Assembly: GCF_020176715.1 (NCBI RefSeq)
Contig: NZ_JAIVMF010000004.1
Coordinates: 248,001-312,000 of the forward strand
DNA: 64,000 nucleotides
Source of the DNA: Stappia stellulata
GTDB taxonomy: Bacteria > Pseudomonadota > Alphaproteobacteria > Rhizobiales > Stappiaceae
Direction: 5' to 3'
The notes under the pieces are model-generated. The model ran no database searches. It was given only the letters and a program-made list of their open reading frames with translations, and was not told where the DNA came from. The translations under genes were made by a program, and so were the position numbers. Of the stretch, positions 5,718 to 63,888 are shown one piece after another. Every line of letters starts with the position of its first letter. Position 1 is the stretch's first letter.

Positions 5718-6033
5718 TGGCCGTGCCGCGCCAGGCCAGCTCGCCTCAAGGCCTTGTTGCCGGCCTGCCTGCCTGGCGAGGGGCCGGTGACGGCGGAAAT
5801 ACCGGGCCGTCCGGCAAACTTCTTTCGGCTTTTTTTGCGCGGCCGTTTTCGCCTCCCATTTTGCGAGAGGTCCGAAACGGTGTTTTCCTGAAGGTTTGCC
5901 TTGTATCGCGGCTCCAAAGGACGCGCCTGAGTCGTTTCAATTCTTACCGAATTGTTGCTTCAGCCTTAGGCAAATTTTAAAGCCGGATAGCTACTGTCAT
6001 AGTCAACGTGGTCATGTTGAGTGTGAGAGTACA
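5718..6033 (+). other. sciP upstream region
   Basis: Non-coding. It holds a GAGTC site at 5929-5933 (GANTC, the CcrM methylation motif), an inverted repeat CAATTC-N5-GAATTG at 5938-5954, the CtrA-like box at 5966-5980, and a second inverted repeat TCAAC-N8-GTTGA at 6003-6020 just before the start. The latter two could be SciP or other regulator sites. GANTC is short enough to occur by chance. Confidence 0.5.
5966..5980 (+). promoter_or_regulatory. CtrA-like box upstream of sciP
   Basis: TTAG-GCAAATT-TTAA matches the CtrA consensus TTAA-N7-TTAA at seven of eight positions with correct spacing, about 55 bp before the sciP ATG. In Caulobacter sciP is itself a CtrA target, which agrees. Confidence 0.65.
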
Positions 6034-6309
6034 ATGACCGACCGAGCAAGTGTACGAGTCAAATATGTTATTGGCCCAGACGGGTCGCCGCTTACGATCG
6101 CCGACCTTCCGCCGGTGACAACGCGTCGATGGGTCATTCGCCGCAAGGCGGAGGTCGTCGCCGCCGTTCGCGGTGGATTGTTGTCGCTGGACGAAGCATG
6201 CAAGCGCTATACGCTGACGGTTGAGGAGTTCCTCTCCTGGCAGAGTTCCATTGATCGGCACGGACTTGCCGGCCTCAGGGCGACCCGCGTGCAACAATAC
6301 CGGAATTGA
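6034..6309 (+). CDS. sciP: SciP-type CtrA inhibitor (DUF1153)
   Basis: 91 aa, the family size. Family features are VKYVIGPDGSPLTIADLPP, then TTRRWVIRRKAEVVAAVRGG and a helix-turn-helix-like part with LSLDEACKRYTLTVEEFLSW. In Caulobacter SciP binds CtrA and blocks its recruitment of RNA polymerase, limiting CtrA-activated genes (including flagellar ones) in G1. I start at the ATG at 6034, which gives the conserved MTDR N-terminus; an open extension to 5896 would run across the CtrA box. The gene sits alone between terminators, between the fliK and fliF units, an arrangement I recall from Caulobacter. Confidence 0.92.
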   Translation: MTDRASVRVKYVIGPDGSPLTIADLPPVTTRRWVIRRKAEVVAAVRGGLLSLDEACKRYTLTVEEFLSWQSSIDRHGLAGLRATRVQQYRN

Positions 6310-6352
6310 GACGATCGGGCGACACCGCCCCTTCGCAAGGATCGTGACAAAC

Positions 6353-6383
6353 GGGCTGGCAATTTGCCGGCCCTTTTGTTTTT
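6353..6383 (+). terminator. Intrinsic terminator after sciP
   Basis: GGGCTGGCAA / TTGCCGGCCC forms a 10-bp stem (one G-T pair) followed by TTTTGTTTTT, about 45 bp after the sciP stop. It isolates sciP from the fliF operon. Confidence 0.85.
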
Positions 6384-6758
6384 GCGGGGTCTGCGGCCGT
6401 CGGGCCGTCCCGGGCCCCGGCAGGCTCGGCGCGCGTCACGCCCTGGCCAACCTTCCGCTGCGTCTTGCGGTTCCCCCCCGAACCTCCGGCGGGGCGGTGA
6501 CTCGTTTTGCTTTTTCAAATTCGTTAATCCGACCGGCGGATATTGCCGGGTGGTTTTCGCATTTCGCCAAGCACGAAGCCCGGATTTCCGCCGTCTTCAC
6601 CAAATCCTAACGTTCGTTAACACCTTGTTTACCATCTGGCGGGCAAATTTTGCCTACCGGCCATCCGGGGGCGCTTTTTCACCATCCCCTCATCCCCAGG
6701 CGCCTCTGGATGGCCCGGTCTCCTGAAGGCTCTACCAAGCGTATCGGATGGGTGGCAC
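6384..6758 (+). other. fliF operon promoter region
   Basis: Non-coding. The CtrA-like box at 6617-6631 lies about 130 bp before fliF. Next to it, CCTAACGTTCGTTAAC at 6606-6621 recurs with one mismatch at 22454-22469. No clear sigma-54 element with correct spacing was seen, in line with an early (class II, CtrA-driven) operon. Confidence 0.5.
6617..6631 (+). promoter_or_regulatory. CtrA-like box upstream of fliF
   Basis: TTAA-CACCTTG-TTTA differs from TTAA-N7-TTAA at one of eight positions. With its flanks (TTCGTTAA...GTTTACC) it closely matches the box at 22555-22569. CtrA control of the fliF operon is established in Caulobacter; here it is inferred from the site. Confidence 0.6.
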
Positions 6759-8390
6759 GTGAACGGACTTGCGGAACTCGTAAAAACACTCGGCCCGACC
6801 CGCATTGCGGCCATGGGTGCGGTCGCCGCCATTCTTGTCGGCGTGTTCGCCTTCATCATGCTGCGCATCTCGACGCCGACGATGACGCCGCTCTACACGG
6901 ACCTGACCTTCGAGGATTCCTCCGCGATCGTGTCGCAGCTGGAAAGCCTCGCGGTGCCGCATGAGCTGCTCAACGACGGGTCGACCATCCTGGTGCCGCA
7001 GGACGACGTTTTCCGCACGCGGATGCGGCTTGCCGAACAGGGGCTGCCGCTTGGCGGCTCCGTCGGCTACGAGATCTTCGACAAGGCCGACACGCTGGGC
7101 TCCACCAGTTTCGTGCAGAACATCAACCGGACGCGGGCGCTGGAAGGCGAGCTTACCCGCACGATCCGCTCCATCGGCCGCATCAAGTCGGCCCGCGTGC
7201 ATCTGGTGATCCCGGAGCGCAAGCTGTTCCAGCGCGACCACCAGCCGCCGACGGCATCGATCGCGCTCAGCGTGCGCGGTTCGCTCGATCCGGGCCAGAT
7301 CCGCGCGATCCAGCATCTCGTCGCCACGGCGGTCGAGGGGCTGCAGCCCAACTATGTGTCGATCGTCGACGAGACCGGCCGCCTGCTGGCAAGCGGTGCC
7401 GGCGAGGAGGGCGAGGGCTTCATCGCCTCGTCGCTGCAGGAGCGCCGCCAGTCGATGGAAGCGCGGGCCCGCACGCAGATCGAGGAAATCGTCAACTCCG
7501 TGGTCGGCGTCGGCCGGTCGCGGGTGCGCGTTGCCATGGAGCTCGATCACAACCGCATCACCGAGACCCAGGAGACTTACGATCCGGACGGTCAGGTGGT
7601 GCGTTCCACCCAGACGCGGGAAGAGAATTCCTCGACAATCGGACGCCGCGGCGCGGTGACCGCCGCCAACCAGTTGCCCGAGGCCGACCAGCAGGACGGC
7701 GACAGCGCCGACCGCGACATCGCCAACCAGGCCGAGGAAATCGTCAACTTCGAGATTTCCAAGTCCGTGAAGACCGAGGTCGTCGAAGCCGGGGGCGTGC
7801 GCCGCCTGTCGGTCGCCGTGCTGGTTGACGGTGTCTATACCCCGGATGAAAACGGCGACCTGGTCTACGCGCCGCGCTCTGCCGACGAACTGGAGCGCAT
7901 CGCTCTGCTGGTTCGCTCCGCCGTCGGCTACGACGAGACCCGCGGCGACACGGTCGAGGTCGTCAACCTGCGCTTCGCCCAGGCGCCGAACAGCGTCCTT
8001 GCCGAGGACGAGGCCGGCCTGTTCGAATTCACCCGCGCCGACATCATGCGCTTCATCGAACTCGGCGTGCTGTTCCTGATCGCCCTGCTTCTCACCCTCT
8101 TCGCGGTGCGTCCGCTGATCAAGCGGATCCTGAGCGTGGAGGAGAAGGAGCAGCCGGCACTCCTCACCGCCGACGGCCAGCCGATCGAGAGCGCCATGAT
8201 CGCCGCCCAGTCGGCGGAGGCCGGCGGCGAGGTCGACGAGGACGGCGAGCCGCGCATCGAATGGCTCGAGGAAGCCCAGGCGCAGGGCGCCGTGCAGGTC
8301 GCAACCATCGCCAAGGTCGGCGGACTGATCGAGGAATACCCCAACGAAGCAGTCGGGATCATCCGCAGCTGGATGAATGAAGCAGCATGA
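6759..8390 (+). CDS. fliF: Flagellar MS-ring protein FliF
   Basis: 543 aa. It forms the inner-membrane MS ring that houses the export gate. Transmembrane segments lie at about residues 18-36 ([15 protein letters not shown]) and 424-446. The periplasmic ring-building motifs include [20 protein letters not shown] and the [13 protein letters not shown] region. The cytoplasmic C-terminus ends in [19 protein letters not shown], the FliG-binding tail. The start is GTG after GGGTGG. It is the first gene of the six-gene operon and overlaps fliG by ATGA. Confidence 0.96.
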
Positions 8391-11990: not shown

Positions 11991-14174
11991 ATGAGCGATG
12001 TGACGGCACGCGAGGGCGGTGATGCGGGTGTGCCCGCGCAGGTGCCCGGCGCCGCGCCCGCGCCTGGCCGTGCCAGCGCGGGTTTTGCCGCCTTCGGGCT
12101 GAACGTCTCTTCCATCTGGGATGCCATCCGCCGCGGCGAGATCGCGCTGGCGCTTGGCGTCATGGTCATTCTGGTCGTGCTGATCCTGCCGATGCCGGCG
12201 TTCATGCTCGACCTGTTCCTCGCCATCTCGATCATCTTTTCCGTGCTGATCCTGATGACCGGCCTGTTCATTCAAAAGCCGCTGGAATTTTCCTCCTTCC
12301 CGACGGTGCTGCTGATCGCCACCATGTTGCGGCTGGCGCTGAACCTGGCGTCCACGCGGCTGATCCTTGCCAACGGGCACGAGGGCACCGACGCCGCCGG
12401 CCAGGTCATCCAGGCCTTCGGCCATTTCGTGATGGGCGGCAATTTCATCATCGGCATCATCGTGTTCTCGATCCTGGTGATCGTGAACTTCGTGGTGATC
12501 ACCAAGGGTTCGGGGCGTATCGCGGAAGTCGCGGCACGCTTCACCCTCGATGCCATGCCCGGCAAGCAGATGGCGATCGACGCGGACCTGAGCGCGGGCC
12601 TCATCGACGAGACGACGGCGCGCACCCGCCGCCGCGAGCTGGAGGACGAAAGCACCTTCTTCGGCGCCATGGACGGCGCCTCGAAGTTCGTGCGTGGCGA
12701 CGCCATCGCCGGCCTGCTGATCACCTTCATCAACATCGTCGGCGGCATCATCATCGGCGTCGCGCAGATGGACCTCTCCTTCGGCGACGCGGCGACGACC
12801 TACACGCTGCTGACCATCGGCGACGGTCTGGTGTCGCAGATCCCGGCGCTGATCGTCTCCACGGCGGCCGGCCTTCTGGTGTCCAAGGCGGGCGTCTCCG
12901 GGTCCGCCGACAAGGCGCTCGCCAGGCAGCTCTCCGGCTACCCCAAGGCGCTTGGCATGTCGTCCTTCGTCATGGTGACGCTCGCCATGCTGCCGGGCAT
13001 TCCGATGCTGCCGTTCCTGAGCCTTGCCGGACTGTCGGGCTATCTGGCCTTCCGGGCCGGAAAATCGCACAAGGAGGTGGCCGACCAGGCCCAGGCGGCA
13101 GAGGTGGCGGCCGCCGCGCCGCCGCCGCCGGCGGAAGCGCCGATCACGGATTCGCTGAAGATGGACGAGCTGCGCATCGAGCTCGGCTATGCGCTGTTGT
13201 CGCTGATCAACGGGACGGGCGCGGAAAGCGACCAGCTGACCGAGCAGATCAAGGCGCTGCGCCGCCAGCTTGCCGCCGATCTCGGCATTCTCATGCCGCC
13301 GGTGCGCATCCTCGACAACATCCAGCTCGGCGCCAACGACTACGTCATCAAGGTCAAGGAAGTGGCCGCCGGCGAGGGTCAGCTCTATCCCGGCCATTTC
13401 ATGGTCATGGATCCGCATGGCGGGCAGGTCAAGCTGCCCGGACAGCACACGACCGAGCCGACCTTCGGCCTGCCGGCGACCTGGGTGGAGGCGCAATATC
13501 GCGAGGACGCGGCGCTGCGCGGCTATACGGTCGTCGATCCCGCGACCGTGCTTGCCACCCATCTCACCGAGACGATCCGTGGCAATGTCGCCGAACTGCT
13601 CACCTATGCCGACGTGCAGAAGCTGCTCAAGGAGATCACCGGCGAACAGGCGAAGCTGGTGGAGGATATCGTTCCGGGCCAGATCACAGTGTCCGGCATC
13701 CAGCGCGTGCTGCAGACGCTTCTGTCCGAGCGCATCTCGGTGCGCGACTTGGGCACGATCCTGGAAGGCATCGCCGAGGCGACCGGCTTCACCCGCAATC
13801 CGGCGACGATCGCGGAACATGTGCGCACCCGGCTGGCGCGGCAGATTTCCGCCGCCAACCAGGCGCCAGGCGGCTATCTGCCGCTGATCGCCATGTCGCC
13901 GCAGTGGGAGCAGGCCTTCATCGAGGCCATCGTCGGCGAGGGCGACGAGCGCTCGCTCGCCATGGCGCCGTCCAAGCTGCAGGAGTTCGTGCGGCTGGTG
14001 CGCGATGCGTTCGAGCAGGCGGCGCAGGCGGGCGAGGTTCCCGTCCTCCTGACCTCGCCGCAGACGCGGCCCTTCGTGCGCTCCATCGTCGAGCGCTTCC
14101 GCGCCCACACCACGGTGATGAGCCAGAACGAGGTGCATTCGCGCACCAGGCTGAAGACGGTCGGAACGGTTTAG
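11991..14174 (+). CDS. flhA: Flagellar export gate protein FlhA
   Basis: 727 aa, full length for an alphaproteobacterial FlhA. An N-terminal membrane domain of about eight segments (to about residue 360) includes the conserved loop with ATMLRLALNLASTRLIL and the cytoplasmic FHIPEP-region stretch AARFTLDAMPGKQMAIDADL. A soluble nonameric C-terminal domain follows, binding export chaperones. It is the last gene of the operon. The last ~47 codons are repeated, diverged, at 17381-17522. fliR or flhB, often nearby, are absent. Confidence 0.96.
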   Translation: MSDVTAREGGDAGVPAQVPGAAPAPGRASAGFAAFGLNVSSIWDAIRRGEIALALGVMVILVVLILPMPAFMLDLFLAISIIFSVLILMTGLFIQKPLEFSSFPTVLLIATMLRLALNLASTRLILANGHEGTDAAGQVIQAFGHFVMGGNFIIGIIVFSILVIVNFVVITKGSGRIAEVAARFTLDAMPGKQMAIDADLSAGLIDETTARTRRRELEDESTFFGAMDGASKFVRGDAIAGLLITFINIVGGIIIGVAQMDLSFGDAATTYTLLTIGDGLVSQIPALIVSTAAGLLVSKAGVSGSADKALARQLSGYPKALGMSSFVMVTLAMLPGIPMLPFLSLAGLSGYLAFRAGKSHKEVADQAQAAEVAAAAPPPPAEAPITDSLKMDELRIELGYALLSLINGTGAESDQLTEQIKALRRQLAADLGILMPPVRILDNIQLGANDYVIKVKEVAAGEGQLYPGHFMVMDPHGGQVKLPGQHTTEPTFGLPATWVEAQYREDAALRGYTVVDPATVLATHLTETIRGNVAELLTYADVQKLLKEITGEQAKLVEDIVPGQITVSGIQRVLQTLLSERISVRDLGTILEGIAEATGFTRNPATIAEHVRTRLARQISAANQAPGGYLPLIAMSPQWEQAFIEAIVGEGDERSLAMAPSKLQEFVRLVRDAFEQAAQAGEVPVLLTSPQTRPFVRSIVERFRAHTTVMSQNEVHSRTRLKTVGTV

Positions 14175-14423: not shown

Positions 14424-16103
14424 TCAGGCAGCTTTTACGCCTGCCAGGAACCGGTCGACGATTTCGGACAGTCTTTCGGCTTCTGTCGCCACATCCTTCG
14501 AGTATCCCATGACGCTTTGCGATGTTTCCAGGGTCGACCTGACATCGTCGGACACCTGACCCGCCGCTTCGGATACTTCCTGTGTTTTTCCGGAGACACT
14601 GGTGACATTGCGATTTATTTCTTGTGTCGACGCGCTTTGTTCTTCGATCGAAGCGACGATCCCGACCGTAAATTCATTGACCTTCGCGATTGTCCCGGAA
14701 ATCACCTTGATCGCTGAAACGGCGTCGGATGTCTGCGTTTGAATCCCTTCGACCTGGCTTCTGATTTCATCGGTTGCCTTTGCCGTCTGCTCTGCCAGTT
14801 CCTTGACTTCCGCAGCGACGACGGCAAATCCGCGACCGGCTTCGCCAGCCCGGGCAGCTTCGATCGTTGCATTCAGCGCAAGGAGGTTGGTTTGTTCGGC
14901 AATCGCCTGGATCAGGCTGACCACGTCGCCGATCTTGCCGGCAGCTTCGGACAGACCGGAAATCTTCTGATCCGTTTCCCGTGTTTCCGAATCGGCGTTT
15001 TGAACCAGGTCTTTGACATTGGATATCTGCTGTTCGATTTCGGCGATGGAGGCGGACATTTGTTCGCTGGCAGCAGCCAGCGCTTCGACGTTGTCTGCCG
15101 CGGAGGAGGACCTCTCGGCCGCCAGAATCGTGCGTTCGGCTGTCTTGCCAGACACATCGCACATGGTCGTCGCGGCAGACTGCAGTTGTCCGGAGTTCGT
15201 GCTGAAGACATCGAGACACTGACCCGAAACAACCCGGAATTCTTCGATCAGGTCTTCAACCCGCTTCTGCCGTTCCGCCTCGCTGACACGCGCGGTTTCG
15301 CGTTCGGACGACAAGCGGTTGCGCTCGATCAGGTTGTCCTTGAACACGATCAGAGCGTTCAGCAAATCGCCGACTTCATCCTTGCGGCCGTCGTTGGAGA
15401 GGTCCACCGAAGTATTTCCCTTGGCAAGACTGGCGGTGGATCTGGCCAGCAGTTTGATCGGCCTTGCCACAAGCGCGAAGTTGATCCATCCGAAAATGGC
15501 AGCGAACGTCAGAAACACGGCGCCGCCAAAAACGGCGACGTTTTTCATCAAGGCAAGTTTTTCGGCTTGTTCGCTCGCCAGTGTCTTGAGCTCTTCGGCC
15601 AGCAGTCCGCGAACACGCGCATGCGTATCGTAGACGACTTGCAGAGACCGGTCGCCCTCGCCGGTGGCCTCAATCGCCTTGGCCAGTTCGACTGTGCGGG
15701 AGTTGCGCATGTAGTCGATCTGCTGAAGGGCATACTCCCTGTACCAAGCATCCCACTCCCCTCGCAGCTGTGACAGGGATGCTGTCTGGCTCGCCCCTCC
15801 GGCCTGCAGTTGTTGGTTCAACGTTTCAAAGGTCGCGTTGATCACGTCCGCAGCCTTGTCGACCTCGCCAACCCATTTCCGGTCGCCCGACAACATGAAG
15901 TTCTTCAAGGATGTTGCCTGATATGAGATCTCCGCCTTGAGAACCTGGTTGGCAACGACCGAGGCGTTTACCTTTTCGTAGCGTTTGACCGAGTCGTTCG
16001 CTCCATCTGCGGAAAGGAACATGAACAAGCAGACGACAACGCCGGTCGCTGCCATGAGACTGTAGGACAAGAGTCCCTTAGACGAGATCGACAAGTTCTT
16101 CAT
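14424..16103 (-). CDS. Methyl-accepting chemotaxis protein (4-helix/CHASE3-like sensor)
   Basis: 559 aa. A transmembrane segment lies at about residues 12-30, a helical periplasmic domain at 31-188 (CHASE3 or 4-helix-bundle type, with no Cache fold visible), a second segment at about 190-210, then HAMP (IKLLARSTASLAKG...GRKDEVGDL) and the signalling coiled coil. The hairpin tip [20 protein letters not shown] is intact. There is no C-terminal CheR/CheB pentapeptide. It lies 17 bp downstream of the exported sensor gene, so the two form an operon. Its G+C is visibly lower than that of the flanking genes, and the pair lies between flhA and a copy of the flhA 3' end, suggesting acquisition. Confidence 0.93.
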   Translation of the reverse strand: MKNLSISSKGLLSYSLMAATGVVVCLFMFLSADGANDSVKRYEKVNASVVANQVLKAEISYQATSLKNFMLSGDRKWVGEVDKAADVINATFETLNQQLQAGGASQTASLSQLRGEWDAWYREYALQQIDYMRNSRTVELAKAIEATGEGDRSLQVVYDTHARVRGLLAEELKTLASEQAEKLALMKNVAVFGGAVFLTFAAIFGWINFALVARPIKLLARSTASLAKGNTSVDLSNDGRKDEVGDLLNALIVFKDNLIERNRLSSERETARVSEAERQKRVEDLIEEFRVVSGQCLDVFSTNSGQLQSAATTMCDVSGKTAERTILAAERSSSAADNVEALAAASEQMSASIAEIEQQISNVKDLVQNADSETRETDQKISGLSEAAGKIGDVVSLIQAIAEQTNLLALNATIEAARAGEAGRGFAVVAAEVKELAEQTAKATDEIRSQVEGIQTQTSDAVSAIKVISGTIAKVNEFTVGIVASIEEQSASTQEINRNVTSVSGKTQEVSEAAGQVSDDVRSTLETSQSVMGYSKDVATEAERLSEIVDRFLAGVKAA

Positions 16104-16120: not shown

Positions 16121-16738
16121 TTATTGCGCGAACTGCTGACGCCGGGTCAGCTCGGTCAAATTCACTTCGATGGTCGCAGCTCCGATCGGCTGCCCCGTCT
16201 CAGGATGGCTTAGGGTGAAGTTGAGCTGGGTGTGCCAGATGCCGTATTCGCTGTTCCACTCAGCCTCATCGACAAAGACTGCATCCGTTCCGACAAGAAA
16301 CGTCTTTTGGAATTTTGCCTCGTCGCCTTGCCAGTAATCACTGGTGATCTGCGACTGGCCGACGTTCAGGCCGTATCTGTCCATGACGATTATCTCGAGG
16401 ATCGCGCCGCGCGATTCAGCCTGTATCCTCGTGAGATACGCCGACAACGGATTGGACAGTGTCGCCGCGACAAGCGGCTGATCTGTCCTTGCCCGTTCCT
16501 GGACCCATTGCTCGTCAAGGAGTTTGATTTCATCCTCCTGAAGGCTCTCGTACTTTCGATTCTGGTTTGAAACCATGAGTTGCACGACATCGTGACCAAC
16601 CAGGTCGATCATCTTCCCCATTGTGATTGGGTCGAGCAAACCGGAGGCATCAGGTGCCGTGCCAGCGCCGAGGGCATCGGCTTCGCCTGAAAAAACGAGA
16701 CAAAACAACAATCCGAATGAAGCGCTCCTCATGAGCAT
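16121..16738 (-). CDS. Exported Cache/PDC-like sensor protein, chemoreceptor partner
   Basis: 205 aa. An N-terminal signal peptide is visible (FGLLFCLVFSGEADALG). The rest looks like one PDC/Cache-like domain with the blocks MDRYGLNVGQSQITSDYWQG and VGTDAVFVDEAEWNSEYG; no other domain or anchor is seen. It is clearly related to the 58205-58777 protein, which has the same GLNVGQS...TSDYWQGDE block and also precedes a chemoreceptor gene. I infer a detached periplasmic ligand-sensing subunit for the co-transcribed receptor. Ligand unknown. AAGAGGTGC precedes the ATG. Confidence 0.85.
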   Translation of the reverse strand: MLMRSASFGLLFCLVFSGEADALGAGTAPDASGLLDPITMGKMIDLVGHDVVQLMVSNQNRKYESLQEDEIKLLDEQWVQERARTDQPLVAATLSNPLSAYLTRIQAESRGAILEIIVMDRYGLNVGQSQITSDYWQGDEAKFQKTFLVGTDAVFVDEAEWNSEYGIWHTQLNFTLSHPETGQPIGAATIEVNLTELTRRQQFAQ

Positions 16739-17380
16739 GCACCTCTTGAAACTACCCTCATAAATTGCATTTTGAATAAAAAAGTCCTAACTGTTTCTTA
16801 ATGTGGAGTCTTAATTCAATATAGTTTTATATATTATTACAAATGACAATATTGTATTTGAGTGTTATTATTTTGAGTATGTAAAATTCACGATAACCTT
16901 ACGGCATGATTCGGCTGTGGCAGCTTTGTGGATTGTTCGCCCGGGCAAGGTCGGGAGGTCGGGGTTGCAATACGCCGTCTTTCCGCCCGCAGCGCCGGGG
17001 ACAGACATTCACAAGCCTGCGCGCGTTGCGCCGTCGGCTCGAGCGGTGAGGATTGGAAGAATTGAAGAGGACGACTGGTCGGTCCGCCGGGCAGCGACAT
17101 CGTCCGGAGTGTCTCGACGCACGACCGATCGCAGGTACGCCCACGACCCCCGGGGGCGGGCAAGGCGGGGCTGTCGGACCGATCCTCGCGACCCTATTCC
17201 TGTTCGCAGGGCATGCAGACCCTTGCGGTTGAGTGCATCGAATGCCTGCGCCATCACCCGGTCCGACGCTTGCGTGAATGGCCGGACACAATGGCCGGAC
17301 ACAATGGCCGCAGGGCGCCAAGCTACCCGGCTTCAACAGCTAGGACGAAGACCATCCCCGAATACATGCGTTGCGGCCGG
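16739..17380. other. AT-rich leader and unassigned DNA of the inserted segment
   Basis: 16739-16910 is strikingly AT-rich for this genome and should hold the promoter of the sensor-chemoreceptor operon. From 16910 to 17380 composition returns to high G+C, but no frame looks coding on either strand. A 13-bp unit AATGGCCGGACAC is repeated head-to-tail from 17277, with a partial third copy. This looks like decayed or junction sequence. Confidence 0.5.
16787..16801 (-). promoter_or_regulatory. CtrA-like box upstream of the sensor-MCP operon
   Basis: In the gene direction the site reads TTAA-GAAACAG-TTAG, seven of eight matches to TTAA-N7-TTAA, about 50 bp before the sensor start. The surrounding DNA is AT-rich, so a chance match is more likely than at the other boxes. 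Confidence 0.45.
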
Positions 17381-17522
17381 CAAGGTTCCGGTGCTCTTGA
17401 CCTCGCCGCAGACCCGGCCCTTCATGCGCTCCATCGTCGAGCGCTTCCGCGCCCATACCACGGTGATGAGCCGGAACGAGGTGCATGCCCGCACCAGGCT
17501 GAAGACGGCCGGAACGGCTAGG
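17381..17522 (+). pseudogene. Diverged duplicate of the flhA 3' end
   Basis: About 140 bp align without gaps until the last codons with flhA 14031-14174, with roughly a dozen substitutions (about 91% identity by eye). The encoded fragment VPVLLTSPQTRPFMRSIVER matches the FlhA C-terminus, followed by RFRAHTTVMSRNEVHARTRL. Relative to flhA one base is lost at the stop, so the frame reads through. No upstream flhA sequence is present. It is non-functional alone and marks the right end of the inserted segment, like the repeats left by integration or recombination at a gene 3' end. Confidence 0.85.
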
Positions 17523-58204: not shown

Positions 58205-58777
58205 ATGAAAAAATATGTACTTGCATCCGCAATCGGGTTTCTGGCCATGACCGGTGTTGCCAGCGCCAACCAGTTCGAAGCCGAACTCAGCACGCTTGCG
58301 AAGGGGAAGATCGCGGAAATCGCATCTGCTCCCGAGGTCATCAGCGCGGTGAAGGCCCAGAACGAAACCACCGCCGCCTACGACCAGGCCAAGATCGACG
58401 AACTCGACACGGCATGGCGCGCGCAGGCGGATGCGGCCGAGCAGCCGATGATCGATGCCGCGCTCGACAGCGAGGTGTCCGGCTACCTGATGGATGTGCA
58501 GGATGGCAGCGACGGCCTGTTCACCGAGATCTTCGTGATGGATGCCAAGGGTCTGAACGTCGGCCAGAGCGATGTGACCTCCGACTATTGGCAGGGCGAC
58601 GAGGACAAGTGGCAGCAGACCTATTCCGTCGGTCCGGACGCCGTCCACATCAGCGAGCTGGAAGAAGACGAGTCGACCCAGACGGTGCAGAGCCAGGTCA
58701 GCGTGTCGGTTGTCGATCCCGACAGCGGCGCGGTGATCGGCGCGGTCACCTTCGGTGTGAACGTCGACAAGCTCTGA
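58205..58777 (+). CDS. Exported Cache/PDC-like sensor protein 2, chemoreceptor partner
   Basis: 190 aa. Signal peptide MKKYVLASAIGFLAMTGVAS followed by A-N cleavage. The remaining ~165 residues look like one PDC/Cache-like domain with MDAKGLNVGQSDVTSDYWQG and VGPDAVHISELEEDESTQTV. Homologous to the 16121-16738 protein. A ribosome site (GGAAGGGG) precedes the ATG at 58205; a GTG at 58169 is unlikely because it would precede the signal peptide. Transcribed with the chemoreceptor gene 66 bp downstream. Confidence 0.88.
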   Translation: MKKYVLASAIGFLAMTGVASANQFEAELSTLAKGKIAEIASAPEVISAVKAQNETTAAYDQAKIDELDTAWRAQADAAEQPMIDAALDSEVSGYLMDVQDGSDGLFTEIFVMDAKGLNVGQSDVTSDYWQGDEDKWQQTYSVGPDAVHISELEEDESTQTVQSQVSVSVVDPDSGAVIGAVTFGVNVDKL

Positions 58778-58843: not shown

Positions 58844-60970
58844 TTGAAAATTTCCGTGAAGCTGCCGGCCATCATCGTCGGTCTTTCGCTGATGTGTTCC
58901 GCGGTGGTCGGGATCGCCAGCTATGCGACAGGCGCCTCCACCGTCCAGTCGCTTTCGGAGGAACGCCTTACGGCGCTTGCCGAAAACCGCAAGAGCGCGC
59001 TTGAGGACTATCTGGCCGGGCTTCAGTCGGGACTTGTGTCCTTTGCGGACAGCAAGACCGTGCTCGGCGCGCTGGCAGGGCTTTCGGGCGGCTGGAGCAA
59101 GGCGGGCGACCAGCCCGCGCAGGCGCTGATCCAGGCCTATGTCACCGAGAATCCGAATGAACCCGACAAGCGCGACGAGCTGGACCGGGCCGGGCGCAAG
59201 CCCTACGACCGCGAGCACCGCAAGATCCATCCGATCATGCGCCGCCATGTCGCCGACACCGGTCTCGGCGACCTGATGCTCGTCGACCCGGACGGCAACG
59301 TGATTTATTCGGTCAAGAAGCGTGACGATTTCGCCGCAAACCTGCGCGACCCGGCCTGGCGCGACACCACGCTGGCCAAGGTGTTCGAGGCGGCCGCGGC
59401 GAGCGAGGGCGGCACCGCGCATCTGGAAGACCTGGGCGCCTATGCGCCGAAGGGCGGGCTGCCTGCCGGGCATATCGCATCGCCGATCACGCTCGGGAGC
59501 AAGACGCTCGGCGTCATCGTCTATGAAGTGCCGACCGCCGGCATCGGCGCGGTCTTGGCGAATTACGCGGGTCTGGGCGAGACCGGCGATATCAATCTGG
59601 TGAATGAGGCCGGCCTGCTGCAAAACGACAGCCTGCGCACGTCCGAGGTCAACGAGCTTCTGTCCGCCGATCTTGACCGCCCCGAGGTGCGCGCGGCGAT
59701 CGGGTCCGGACCCCGTTATGTCACGATGGCGGACTTCAAGGGCACGGACGTGGAGGCTGCGATCGCCCCGCTCAGCTTCCTGGGCAAGTCCTATGCGCTG
59801 GTGGTGAGCCAGACGACCGACGAGCTCTTCGCGCCGCTGGCGTCGCTGCGCAACTGGATCCTGATCATCACGCTGGCGGCGGTCGGCGTCGCGCTTGCGG
59901 TCGGGATCCACTTCTCGCGGGCCCTGACGGTGCGGATCAGCCGGCTTTCGGGCGCGATGGAAGGGCTTGCCGGCGGCAACACCGAGGTCGATCTTCCCGA
60001 GGACAAGCAGGCCGACGAGATCGACGCCATGACCCGCTCCGTGGTCGTCTTCCGCGACAATGCCATCGAGCGCCAGGCGCTGGCGGAGGAGCAGAACGCC
60101 GGCCGGCGCGAGACGGAAGAGCGCGCGCGGCGGGTGTCGCAACTGATCGAGCGCTTCCGCGGCGAGGTCGGCGAGATGCTCGATGCCGTGACCGCCAACG
60201 CCGGGCAGATGCAGGGCACCGCCCGGGCGCTCACTGCAGTGGCCGAACAGGCCTCCGGCGGCGCCAATACGGCTGCGGCCGCGGCCGAACAGACCTCCGG
60301 CAATGTGCAGACCGTCGCCTCGGCGGCGGAGGAACTGGCCGCGTCGATCCAGGAGATCGGCCGTCAGGTGTCCAATGCGACCGAGATCGTCGGCGGCGCG
60401 GTCACCAGTGCGGAAAGCACCAACGCCAAGATCGGCGGCCTGGCCGAGGCGGCACAGCGCATCGGCGACGTGGTGAAACTCATTACCGACATCGCCGAAC
60501 AGACCAATCTCCTGGCGCTGAACGCGACCATCGAGGCGGCGCGCGCCGGCGATGCCGGCAAGGGCTTTGCGGTCGTCGCCGCGGAGGTGAAGGAGCTCGC
60601 CACCCAGACCTCCAAGGCGACGGAGGAGATCAGCGCCCAGATTTCGGCAATCCAGGGCGCCACCCAGGAAGCCGTCGGTGCGATCGGCGAGATCAGCTCC
60701 ACGATGGGCAGCGTCAGCGAATACACCAATTCGATTGCGGCTGCCGTCGAGCAGCAGGGCGCGGCCACCGGCGAGATCTCCGGCAGCGTGCAGGAAGCCG
60801 CGCGCGGCACCCGCGAGGTCACCGAGGCGATGACCAACATCACCCAGCAGGTGCAGGAGACGAGCCAGTCCGCAACCGAGGTGCTGACCGCCTCCGGCGA
60901 CGTCAGCGAACGGGCGGGGGCGCTGCGTCAGACCGTCGACCGTTTCTTGAGCGAGGTGTCGGCAGCCTGA
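58844..60970 (+). CDS. Methyl-accepting chemotaxis protein with double Cache domain
   Basis: 708 aa. Transmembrane segment 1 at about residues 8-28 ([20 protein letters not shown]), a dCache-type periplasmic region to about 335 ([40 protein letters not shown]), segment 2 at about 340-360, HAMP, then the signalling coiled coil with [20 protein letters not shown]. No C-terminal CheR/CheB pentapeptide. I chose TTG at 58844 because GGGAG lies eight bases upstream; the frame is open to 58784. It has its own Cache domain as well as the adjacent soluble sensor. Confidence 0.94.
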
Positions 60971-61028: not shown

Positions 61029-61193
61029 CGGGCGTGCGGGGATCTGTGGGCAGAGGGGCTTGCGGATTGACATTCCCGGTCCGCTGGGATCACCTTCCCG
61101 TCCGCCGAAAACGCCATTTCTCGGCCAATCTCGAATAACCTGCGGATGCGGTGGTCACTGGCCCCTGCTTGAACCGTGCTCCGGGAGGACACC

Positions 61194-62228
61194 ATGACGA
61201 AGCTCTCCAAACGTTCCATGCTGAAGACCCTGGCCGCGACCGCGCTTGCCACGGCCTGTGCGCTGGCGCCCGTCGCGCCCGCTGCCGCCGCCGACAAGGT
61301 GACTGTCGGCGCGCTGCGTTTCACCTCGCATGCGGCAAGCTTCGTCGCCTTCGAGCGCGGTTATTTCGCGGACGAAGGGCTCGACGTGGAGTTCACCTTC
61401 TTCCAGGCGGCCCAGCCGATGGCCGTGGCAATTGCCTCCGGCGACGTTGATTTCGGCGTCACCGCGATTTCCGGCGGGCTGATCAACCTGGCGGAGAAGG
61501 GCGCGATCAAGGTGGTCGGCGGGGCGTTGCAGGAAGAGCCCGGCATCGACGGCCAGATGATCCTGGCGTCCAAGGCCGCTTATGACGCCGGGCTGACCAG
61601 CCCGGCCGCGCTTGCCGGCAAGAGCTTCGGCATCACCCAGACCGGGTCGTCCTTCCACTACATGGTGCACAAGATCGCCGACAAGGAAGGCATTCCCCGT
61701 TCCGAGATCACCCTGCGTCCGCTGCAGAAAGTCGGCGCGGTGATCGGCGCGCTGAAGACCGGCCAGATCGACGCCTGGACCATCGTTCCCCATATCGCCA
61801 AGGCCATCGCCGCCGGACCGGAAATCGAGCCGATCGGCATGATCGCCGATTACATCCCGGACTATCAGGTCACCACAGTCTTCACCTCGACCGCGAACAC
61901 CACCGACAAGCCGGATCTGGTCAAGCGCTTCCTCGCAGCCTTTGCCAAGGGTGCTGCCGACTTCAACGCGGCGCTGGTCGACAAGACGGCGAGCGAGCAG
62001 GAAGCCGAGGACATGGTTCGCCTGATCCACAAGTATGTCTATGCCGACCGTCCGTTCGACAAGGCCGCCCCCTCCATCCGCAACGGCGCGATGCGCATCA
62101 ACGAAGGGGCGCGGCTGAACCTTGCCTCCGTTTCCGACCAGCTGGAGTGGTTCAAGTCGGAAAACCTGGTGCCGTCCTCGGTGACGCTCGAGATGCTGGT
62201 CGACAGCAGCTTCGTCGAGACGGACTGA
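61194..62228 (+). CDS. ABC transporter substrate-binding protein (SsuA/TauA/NMT1-like)
   Basis: 344 aa. Signal peptide LKTLAATALATACALAPVAP ending AAAA. The mature protein follows the NMT1/SsuA pattern: VTVGALRFTSHAASFVAFER, GYFADEGLDVEFTFFQAAQP, and AIASGDVDFGVTAISGGL. Periplasmic binding protein for an unidentified ligand; relatives bind sulfonates, taurine, nitrate or thiamine precursors. GGGAGG precedes the ATG at 61194. First gene of the operon. Confidence 0.92.
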   Translation: MTKLSKRSMLKTLAATALATACALAPVAPAAAADKVTVGALRFTSHAASFVAFERGYFADEGLDVEFTFFQAAQPMAVAIASGDVDFGVTAISGGLINLAEKGAIKVVGGALQEEPGIDGQMILASKAAYDAGLTSPAALAGKSFGITQTGSSFHYMVHKIADKEGIPRSEITLRPLQKVGAVIGALKTGQIDAWTIVPHIAKAIAAGPEIEPIGMIADYIPDYQVTTVFTSTANTTDKPDLVKRFLAAFAKGAADFNAALVDKTASEQEAEDMVRLIHKYVYADRPFDKAAPSIRNGAMRINEGARLNLASVSDQLEWFKSENLVPSSVTLEMLVDSSFVETD

Positions 62229-62258
62229 CGACACGCCGACAAAGGTCTGGACCGTTTC

Positions 62259-63032
62259 ATGGATTTGCTGCTGCGCGGGGTGTCGCACATGTATGGCGAC
62301 ACCCAGGTTCTCCGCGACATCGATCTCGCCGTCGGCGAGGGCGAGATCGTGTGCATCATCGGGCCATCGGGCTGCGGCAAGTCGACCCTGCTGCGCTTCA
62401 TCGGCGGGCTGGAACGTCCCGACGCCGGAGAGGTGCTGCTCGCCGGCGCGCCGCCGGCCGGATCGCTCAATCCGCTGACCTATGTCTTCCAGGATTTCGC
62501 GCTGCTGCCCTGGCGCACGGTCGAGGGCAACGTCTCGCTGGTGCTGGAGGACCACGGGCTGTCGGCGGCCGAGCGGCGCGGGATCATCGACGACGTGCTG
62601 GCGCGCACGAGCCTGAGCGATTTCAAGACCGCGCTGCCGCGCCAGCTTTCCGGCGGCATGAAGCAGCGCGTGGCGATTGCCCGCGCGCTCAGCGTGCGCC
62701 CGGCGGTGATGCTGATGGACGAGCCGCTGTCGGCGCTCGACAGCCAGACGCGCGAACTCCTGATGGACGATCTCGTGGGCCTGTGGCAGCGCGAACGCTT
62801 CACCGCCTGCTATGTCACCCACAATCTGGCCGAGGCCGTGCGGCTCGGCCACAAGATCGTGGTGCTGTCGCGCCGACCCGGGCGGATCCGCGAGATCGTC
62901 GAGATCGACCGCGATCTCGCCGACCGCCAGCAGGCGGATGCGAAGCTCGACGCGATCCAGCGCGATCTGTGGCAGCTGCTGCGCGACGAGGCGCGGGCCG
63001 CCGACCGGGAGCTTGCCGATGACACTGTCTGA
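62259..63032 (+). CDS. ABC transporter ATP-binding protein (SsuB/TauB-like)
   Basis: 257 aa. Walker A GPSGCGKSTLLRFIGGLERP, Q-loop VFQDFALLPWRTVEGNV (the LLPW form common in this subfamily), signature LSGGMKQRVAIARALSVRPA, Walker B VMLMDEPLSALDSQ, and H-loop CYVTHNLAEA. It starts 30 bp after the binding protein and overlaps the permease gene by 14 bp. Confidence 0.94.
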   Translation: MDLLLRGVSHMYGDTQVLRDIDLAVGEGEIVCIIGPSGCGKSTLLRFIGGLERPDAGEVLLAGAPPAGSLNPLTYVFQDFALLPWRTVEGNVSLVLEDHGLSAAERRGIIDDVLARTSLSDFKTALPRQLSGGMKQRVAIARALSVRPAVMLMDEPLSALDSQTRELLMDDLVGLWQRERFTACYVTHNLAEAVRLGHKIVVLSRRPGRIREIVEIDRDLADRQQADAKLDAIQRDLWQLLRDEARAADRELADDTV

Positions 63033-63888
63033 CACATCCGCCAAGGCGTCGGCGCACGGCGAACCCGCAGGCGGAGAAGCGTCGCCGGGGGCGGCAGACA
63101 CCCGGCTGCAGCCCGTGCCCTTTCGCGGCGGCGGGTTCCGTCCGGTGCGGGTGCGCTTCGTCGGGCTGCTGGTGTTCGCGGTGATCCTTGTGCTGTGGGA
63201 GGCCGGGTCGCAAAGCGGCGTGATCTCCAACCTCGTGCTGCCGGCGCCGAGCGAGGCTTTCGAGGCCTTCCGCCAACTGGTCGAGACGGGCCAGCTCTGG
63301 CGCCACCTCGGCGCGTCGCTGCAGCGCCTGATTGTCGGCTGGACCCTCGGCATGTCGCTGGGCGTTGCGGTCGGGCTGATGATCGGCCTGTTCTCGCTCG
63401 CCCGCGCCGGCCTGATGCCGCTGGTCTCGGCGTTGTTTCCGATCCCGAAGATCGCGCTGTTGCCGCTTTTCGTCATCTGGTTCGGGATCGGCGAGGGATC
63501 GAAGGTCGCGACGATCCTGTTCGGCTCGTTCTTTCCAACGGTGATCGCCACCTCCGGCGGCGTCGACAATGTCGACCGCTCGCTGGTGCGCATGGGACAA
63601 TCCTTCGGGCTGTCCTGGTGGTCGATCGTGCGCAAGATCATCCTTCCCGGCGCCATGCCGGCGATCCTGTCGGGCGCGCGCATTTCCGCCTCGATCGCGA
63701 TCATCCTGCTGGTCGCGGCGGAGATGATCGGCGCGGAATACGGCGTCGGCGCCTTCATCCTGATGGCGGGAAGCCTGTTCGCCACCGATCAGCTTCTGGC
63801 CGGCGTCGCGATCCTTTCCGCGATGGGGCTGATCGTGGGGTGGCTGATCGGGCGCGCCGAACGGTGGCTTCTGCGCTGGCGCAGCTGA
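63019..63888 (+). CDS. ABC transporter permease (SsuC/TauC-like)
   Basis: 289 aa. After a 45-residue polar N-terminus come about six membrane segments. The ABC-coupling loop (EAA) region is QSFGLSWWSIVRKIILPGAM followed by PAILSGARISASIAIILLVA. GGGAG precedes the ATG at 63019, inside the ATPase gene end. Completes the three-gene uptake system. Confidence 0.93.
   Translation: MTLSDTSAKASAHGEPAGGEASPGAADTRLQPVPFRGGGFRPVRVRFVGLLVFAVILVLWEAGSQSGVISNLVLPAPSEAFEAFRQLVETGQLWRHLGASLQRLIVGWTLGMSLGVAVGLMIGLFSLARAGLMPLVSALFPIPKIALLPLFVIWFGIGEGSKVATILFGSFFPTVIATSGGVDNVDRSLVRMGQSFGLSWWSIVRKIILPGAMPAILSGARISASIAIILLVAAEMIGAEYGVGAFILMAGSLFATDQLLAGVAILSAMGLIVGWLIGRAERWLLRWRS

Follow-up and report, generated by a model that had tools for sequence, protein, structure and literature searches.

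Within the analysed stretch of DNA, a 64-kb window of the Stappia stellulata genome (hereafter the window), two genes for small, apparently exported proteins are each followed by a chemoreceptor (MCP) gene. We call these pairs A and B, and their genes and surroundings are as follows:

14027..14169, plus strand: 3' end of a gene that we take to be FlhA-like, holding one copy (the reference) of a 143-nt direct repeat that flanks pair A
14424..16103, minus strand: MCP-A, a CHASE3/four-helix-bundle chemoreceptor of 559 aa and the partner of PDC-A (Pfam, AF2, Foldseek)
16121..16738, minus strand: PDC-A, an exported, detached Cache/PDC-fold protein of 205 aa (BLASTP, AF2, Foldseek, hydropathy)
17375..17517, plus strand: second copy of the repeat (92%), on the far side of pair A
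58205..58777, plus strand: PDC-B, an exported, detached Cache/PDC-family protein of 190 aa (BLASTP)
58844..60970, plus strand: MCP-B, a double-Cache chemoreceptor of 708 aa from its likely TTG start (reading frame, Pfam)
61176..62228, plus strand: gene for an NMT1/THI5-like solute-binding protein, 3' of pair B (Pfam NMT1 match on the homologue L194)

Frames that resemble ABC transporter genes, by look alone, also follow MCP-B along with the NMT1/THI5-like gene (61176-63888).

According to the original prediction, the two small proteins share a sequence block and each is encoded just upstream of a chemoreceptor gene in the same direction. Both statements held: BLASTP aligns PDC-A and PDC-B with 62 of 163 residues identical (38%, E 2e-34), the alignment taking in the block GLNVGQS..TSDYWQGDE, and the intergenic gaps are 17 bp in pair A, with both genes on the minus strand, and 66 bp in pair B. 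The latter value is counted from the PDC-B stop to the TTG at 58844, which is a likelier start for MCP-B than 58784, where its longest frame opens. The two receptors also differ in their sensor domains, as had been proposed, with CHASE3, HAMP and MCPsignal all above the Pfam cut-off in the helical-bundle receptor MCP-A, and MCPsignal above but dCache_1 and HAMP below the cut-off in the double-Cache receptor MCP-B. The pairs do occupy two separate loci, but calling these "unlinked" was loose wording, because both sit on one contig, with about 42 kb between them. A third PDC copy in the genome (L004:5405-6007) has its MCP gene, of the helical-bundle class, 14 bp further on (6022-7707), and all three copies thus lie directly upstream of a co-directional MCP gene. 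Since the whole 4.55-Mb genome holds only 17 MCPsignal matches, this 3/3 adjacency is very unlikely to have arisen by chance.

Export, fold and relatives of the Cache-like protein

Judging from hydropathy only, a hydrophobic N-terminal segment is present in 185/185 paired PDC proteins (the 185 pairs being those with non-identical PDC sequences), and a TM-like segment occurs in the remainder of the protein in just one of them; a lipobox-like pattern was seen in six. This agrees with the predicted signal peptide and missing membrane anchor, and as regards the counter-case of a cytoplasmic location, checked on the same 185 proteins by the same means, the PDC proteins look exported.

The AlphaFold (AF2) model of PDC-A, built with 35 diverse members, is confident (pLDDT 92.5): the N-terminal part is helical, and an antiparallel sheet comes after it. 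Its 50 Foldseek matches at E ≤ 0.001 are mostly Cache/PDC-like sensor domains, and the top matches include Tlp3, DctB, PctC, WalK and Mlp24, all partial and with a low query TM of 0.29-0.42. The Cache-like nature originally assigned to the protein is supported by this model and these matches. Profile searches were less telling: no Pfam or NCBIfam family lies above cut-off for PDC-A or PDC-B, no Pfam Cache model matches either at E ≤ 1, and no Pfam SBP family matches them; nor was the two-lobed binding-protein fold found, the fold being Cache-like. Among the 35 members, dCache_1 is listed at E ≤ 0.5 in seven (best E 0.0038) and MCP-like_PDC_1 in six (best E 0.0015), with no Pfam Cache model reaching its curated cut-off in any of them. 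A search for solved structures related by sequence gave no significant match for PDC-B (best E 0.98) or for the 35-member profile (best E 0.25).

The block shared by the two window proteins is a likely place for a binding pocket:

16319..16372, minus strand: PDC-A residues 123-140, the near-invariant GLNVGQS..TSDYWQGDE block, a likely pocket region

G123, L124, D134, Q137, G138, D139 and E140 are invariant across the 35 diverse members, and the block as a whole, our putative pocket region, is nearly invariant across PDC proteins with different types of partner. In the membrane histidine kinases L309-L313 the dCache region begins with a related domain, and the PDC-family domain also sits at the C-terminus of longer proteins:

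L307:232-2019 and L308:1465-3246: binding proteins of the Peripla_BP_5 type (E <1e-140) that end in a domain of the PDC Cache family
L087, L134, L136, L305, L315, L318 and L326: proteins of 404-475 aa with the Cache domain C-terminal and an N-terminal part that is at most weakly SBP_bac_3-like

In the second group, L087 and L326 adjoin an MCP gene, and SBP_bac_3 likeness, always sub-threshold, was seen in 3/6 other long forms scanned.

Conservation, partner types and probable mobility of the gene pair

The PDC gene is present in 62/87 genomes of the family, at 92 places, three of them in the S. stellulata genome. The other 89 comprise 88 short frames and one long frame; long frames (>360 aa) were excluded from the adjacency counts (one in the family set, five in the class set). 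For 79/88 short-frame copies a receptor gene on the same strand follows within 350 bp, seemingly interrupted at two of these 79 loci (L174 and L184), and for the other 9/88 none does. In a sample of the class, 44/385 genomes carry the gene; an MCP gene is next downstream of 42 of the 54 short frames, adjacent on the other strand in four cases, upstream in one and missing in seven, one of the seven (L106) being a PDC gene followed in tandem by a second one and then by an MCP gene. Among the best 80 of at least 547 confirmed GTDB matches, 75 have an MCP gene downstream; of the other five, four reach the sequence end within about 1.2 kb and one has the MCP gene upstream. A recount of the same 80 under other rules gave 75 downstream, two at a contig edge, one upstream and two excluded as long frames. 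By record title these 80 are alphaproteobacterial, except for one Mesoflavibacter and one plain Proteobacteria. Further loci with 1.5 kb of flanking sequence, which partly repeat earlier species (the sampled sets overlap in species), have an MCP gene downstream in 78/93 cases and not downstream in 15/93, and a phylum-level search found matches in 37/398 genomes. Homologues are thus mostly neighbours of chemoreceptor genes in the family, the class sample, the best GTDB matches and the further loci alike, as one would expect of the proposed module; the copies for which no such neighbour was found (9/88, 7/54 and 15/93) count against it. Two arrangements depart from the usual order:

L106:4578-5936: two tandem PDC genes before a single MCP gene
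L093, L114, L116 and L117: a PDC gene and a gene for an MCP of 790-845 aa transcribed divergently, 30-176 bp apart

At the latter four loci the pairing survives a change of orientation.

The partner of the 185 PDC proteins is a helical-bundle (CHASE3) MCP in 128 cases (type A), a double-Cache MCP in 36 (type B) and some other MCP in 21, with no Pfam sensor domain above cut-off in the nine of these 21 that were scanned. In the class sample, one further locus departs from this:

L126:4622-6905: PDC gene with a histidine kinase gene, in place of an MCP gene, immediately downstream

By eye, the periplasmic segment of the L126 kinase resembles that of some of the other MCP partners. For 181/185 PDC proteins the nearest PDC neighbour has the same type of partner. 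A C-terminal extension is found in 128/128 type A, 0/36 type B and 4/21 other PDC proteins, and position 104 is R, Q, Y or K in type A versus mostly D, E or A in type B. In its sequence, then, the PDC subfamily tracks the type of partner.

Pair A has a GC content of 0.55-0.57 against 0.66 for the window and lies between the two copies of the 143-nt repeat. Elsewhere the GC content of the PDC-MCP cassette equals that of its flanks (median difference -0.004 at 91 type-A loci). A search of the 64-kb window for tRNA genes found none. The window's copy of pair A is probably a recent two-gene acquisition, as if inserted between the repeats.

Covariation and a candidate docking patch

Such mobility could mean that the two genes merely travel together as a cassette and that their products never touch. 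The low GC content of pair A and its position between direct repeats would suit this explanation, as would the correlation of PDC distances with those of the cytoplasmic part of the MCP (0.70). We nevertheless regard it as highly improbable, because of the pattern of covariation within the same proteins and the residues that are lost from unpaired receptors, both of which concern the following regions:

16409..16483, minus strand: PDC-A residues 86-110, a candidate receptor-contact face (D86, Q87, R104, R110) drawn from covariation
15669..15746, minus strand: MCP-A residues 120-145, with the helix-3 motif W120/Q128/M132/R133/T137/V138/E139/E145, a candidate docking patch together with R75

The covariation analysis covers type A (128 pairs); the 36 pairs of type B lie outside it. 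PDC distances follow those of the sensor when the cytoplasmic part is given (partial r 0.58) more closely than those of the cytoplasmic part when the sensor is given (0.32). Ranked by excess mutual information (MI), the top two of the 151x449 PDC-MCP column pairs are R104-E139 and D86-R133, both between the PDC protein and the sensor; the top normalised MI is 0.386, whereas 40 shuffles, in which phylogeny is not preserved, reached at most 0.278. With a tree built from the MCP cytoplasmic part, changes at positions 86 and 133 coincide on 15 branches (of 19 and 22 changes), and on a concatenated tree they coincide on 14 (of 18 and 22). With either tree D86/R133 takes the first rank among 37,488 PDC-sensor pairs, and not one of the 50,864 PDC-cytoplasmic pairs scores as high, which argues against co-inheritance as the whole explanation. 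The D86-R133 combination occurs in 101/128 type-A pairs, the rest include K-D and K-E swaps, and like-charged residues at these positions occur in 0/128.

At positions 104 and 139, R or K goes with D or E in 91/128 pairs and Q or Y with N, T or G in 35, with two pairs that do not fit. Here the trees disagree: six branches share a change of charge class on the tree of the cytoplasmic part (rank 9, with two PDC-cytoplasmic pairs above), versus one on the concatenated tree (rank 188, with 224 PDC-cytoplasmic pairs above). As this one shared change represents one large clade, we keep the R104/E139 contact as probable only. The combinations recurred among new type-A pairs, of which we counted 18 of 44, namely those with <90% identity to any earlier PDC: R-D in 12, Q-N in four and Y-N in two at 104/139, and D-R in 17 and R-T in one at 86/133.

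An enrichment of sensor columns in a bulk DCA (84 of the top 100, against 46.5 expected) was dropped as evidence, because an MI control with shuffling failed to confirm it (0.49 versus a null mean of 0.40 and a null maximum of 0.60).

Modelling the two proteins as a single chain, fused by read-through, was rejected: in-frame candidates exist, but by a rough estimate their linkers would not extend as far as the bundle tip.

Among 24 diverse type-A sensor regions, identity to the first sequence is only 17-33%, yet they have a common helix motif (W119, Q127, M131, T136, V137, A140, R141 and E144 in alignment numbering; MCP-A numbering is one higher). With this we compared 20 unpaired receptors of the same sensor class, which have no PDC gene next to them; they score more than 85 bits and were selected by eye by comparing their positions with those of the PDC genes, and at least one more of this kind (G357:C14:458627) was left out. 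With columns chosen on the same data that were counted, Q128 together with V/I138 occurs in 119/128 paired versus 0/20 unpaired receptors, Q128 alone in 125/128 versus 7/20, R75 in 97/128 versus 0/20 and R133 in 106/128 versus 3/20. Part of this contrast may be phylogeny, because the unpaired receptors come partly from other lineages; in three unpaired receptors from the same family as S. stellulata (L359-L361), Q128 is retained, while positions 138 and 133 are H and A. The combined mark of Q128 and V/I138 is present in 16/18 new pairs and in 0/19 further unpaired sensors, the latter a weak test because these are distant matches (30-72 bits) with a poorly aligned motif.

In the AlphaFold model of the MCP-A sensor (pLDDT 92.9), helices span residues 6-72, 75-99, 104-133, 135-147 and 149-213 in MCP numbering. 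Residue 75 opens helix 2, and helix 3 ends at about 133, with the short helix 135-147 next. Assuming that the bundle alternates up-down-up-down, starting with the first membrane helix, the patch residues would lie at its membrane-distal end. For the helical-bundle class, the original suggestion that the soluble protein docks on its receptor is thus backed at the level of residues, by the first-ranked covariation of D86 with R133 and by the loss of the patch in unpaired MCPs, and we take this as evidence for a predicted direct contact between the Cache protein and the helical-bundle MCP. For the double-Cache class (pair B) that part of the proposal draws on adjacency, on the matching of subfamilies and, as described below, on what appears to be looser selection where the MCP is missing.

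The best Foldseek match of the MCP-A sensor is the HK9 sensor 3va9 (E 3.6e-3, TM to target 0.85), no fold match being found at E ≤ 0.001; weaker matches are 5xsj_L of XylFII-LytS (rank 4, E 0.067) and a 9m08 chain of QseG-QseE (E 0.17), and there is a weak likeness to the ligand-binding bundle of PcaY_PP. A contact between the two proteins would also be compatible with a constitutive subunit, a structural or tuning clamp for activity or stability, with the receptor bundle itself sensing the ligand. Cache domains are mainly ligand sensors, and the occurrence of a related domain inside sensor histidine kinases and of PDC domains fused to Peripla_BP_5 binding proteins likewise speaks for a sensory role; for these reasons we think such a clamp unlikely on balance. 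It does draw some support from the likeness of the MCP-A bundle to HK9 and PcaY_PP, and from the Cache block, whose near-invariance across partner types is unlike a diversifying pocket. Moreover, accessory proteins that bind and tune sensors are known, as is reported for QseG-QseE (PMC12691602), the complex to which 9m08 belongs.

Loci without the receptor gene

Within the genus Stappia, four genomes have the PDC gene, MCP-B and the NMT1-like gene in this order, and at seven congeneric loci the PDC gene is directly followed by the NMT1-like gene, with the MCP gene missing. In eight congeners (those seven and G081), matches to the MCP-B sensor are only 30-34% identical, or absent in two; the four genomes with MCP-B also have a similarly distant match. 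The unpaired PDC proteins keep most of the conserved block, and their dN/dS is 0.15-0.79 (21 comparisons, some near saturation and mostly between more divergent sequences than the paired ones) versus 0.08-0.13 for paired PDC proteins (6 comparisons). This suggests that the MCP is the main constraint on the PDC protein, which would not at once become useless without it. Since seven congeners keep the PDC gene without the MCP, and still under some constraint, the protein may have another role.

Such a role would be the rule if the PDC protein were a general periplasmic binding-like protein, with a transporter or another periplasmic protein as its main partner and the adjacency to MCP genes secondary. 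Besides the seven loci with the NMT1-like gene, the Peripla_BP_5 fusions (L307, L308), the sub-threshold SBP_bac_3 likeness in three of six other long forms and the position of L119 near an SBP_bac_5 gene point in this direction. Yet adjacency to MCP genes dominates in every sample, and at loci of ≥8 kb an NMT1-like gene is near only 4/32 type-B copies and 1/87 type-A copies, and in this single type-A case it is the distant gene in the window. Together with the covariation with the MCP sensor and the looser constraint where the MCP is missing, this makes a mainly transport-related role decidedly unlikely.

A probable two-gene chemoreceptor and its relation to known systems

In our judgement, the two genes of a pair likely encode a two-protein chemoreceptor, with the exported Cache protein as its dedicated sensing subunit. 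The computation supports this reading, and with it the two-gene chemosensory module of the original prediction, by a pairing conserved in every sample, an export-like N-terminus, a Cache-like fold, covariation, patch loss in unpaired receptors and looser selection in unpaired PDC proteins. What we infer beyond this is that the two proteins form a complex, that a ligand binds and a signal is passed on, and that the mode of action is the same for double-Cache partners. The first gene would provide an exported, anchorless Cache (PDC) protein as a detached periplasmic sensory subunit, and the second a membrane chemoreceptor that reads it. In type A, the PDC face 86-110 would dock on the four-helix bundle of the receptor at its membrane-distal tip, a site made of the start of helix 2 and the end of helix 3 (residues 75 and 128-143), aided by a D86-R133 ion pair and probably by an R104-D/E139 ion pair too. 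A ligand in the conserved Cache pocket might then change the bundle, and the change would pass through HAMP to the kinase-control domain.

A broader reading, which we consider evenly balanced, is that of a portable periplasmic sensor plug: one Cache family with a nearly invariant pocket, whose subfamilies have different docking faces and serve several receptor architectures, namely helical-bundle, double-Cache and further MCPs, and possibly a histidine kinase (L126). Sensing and signalling would therefore be separately evolving, exchangeable subunits across Alphaproteobacteria. The findings also suggest a way in which a sensor domain may become separated from its receptor yet persist as an exchangeable part. 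Many chemoreceptors have no known ligand, and if the two-protein reading is true, a receptor domain screened for ligands in isolation would fail to reveal the signal. The analysis names the gene to include in such screens and a specific candidate interface, D86-R133, and Q128 with V/I138 provides a sequence mark that separates paired from unpaired receptors in the sets examined.

In the open literature we found no account of the PDC family or of the PDC-MCP pairing, most subscription papers and bioRxiv preprints being outside the scope of the search. The classical binding-protein-dependent chemoreceptors are MalE-Tar and the ribose/galactose protein-Trg systems, in which a soluble periplasmic protein docks on a four-helix-bundle receptor and passes on a signal; the PDC-MCP pair appears to work in like manner, as far as docking and signalling can be inferred for it. 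It differs in that the PDC protein is Cache-like rather than two-lobed, is encoded directly beside its receptor and has no evident transporter function, and because its partner has a Cache fold it is not a binding-protein-dependent receptor as usually defined. The double-Cache domains of Tlp3, PctC, DctB and Mlp24 have a PDC-like fold, but they are covalent parts of membrane receptors, whereas the PDC protein is free and exported.

Stimulation of chemoreceptors by SBPs is known in general (PMC9602780). XylFII-LytS (PDB 5xsj) joins a periplasmic sensor protein to a four-helix-bundle sensor, with helices H3 and H4 as the binding site (PMC9769921); that system differs in being a histidine kinase with a protein of sugar-binding fold from Clostridium, in place of a Cache protein with a chemoreceptor. 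QseG-QseE has an accessory protein that activates a membrane signalling protein by binding it directly (PMC12691602), but QseG is an outer-membrane lipoprotein acting on a kinase, and the comparison is by description and a weak fold match only. In systems of the VtrA/VtrC co-component type, two adjacent genes are reported to form one heterodimeric periplasmic sensor (PMC9214523). The nearest precedent that we found is in Rhodopseudomonas, where a Cache gene that stands alone neighbours the gene of a ligand-gated channel (PMC549065); it differs in concerning one genome and an ion channel and is likened to the PDC family by description only, but as an idea it is the same, a free Cache protein cooperating with a neighbouring receptor.
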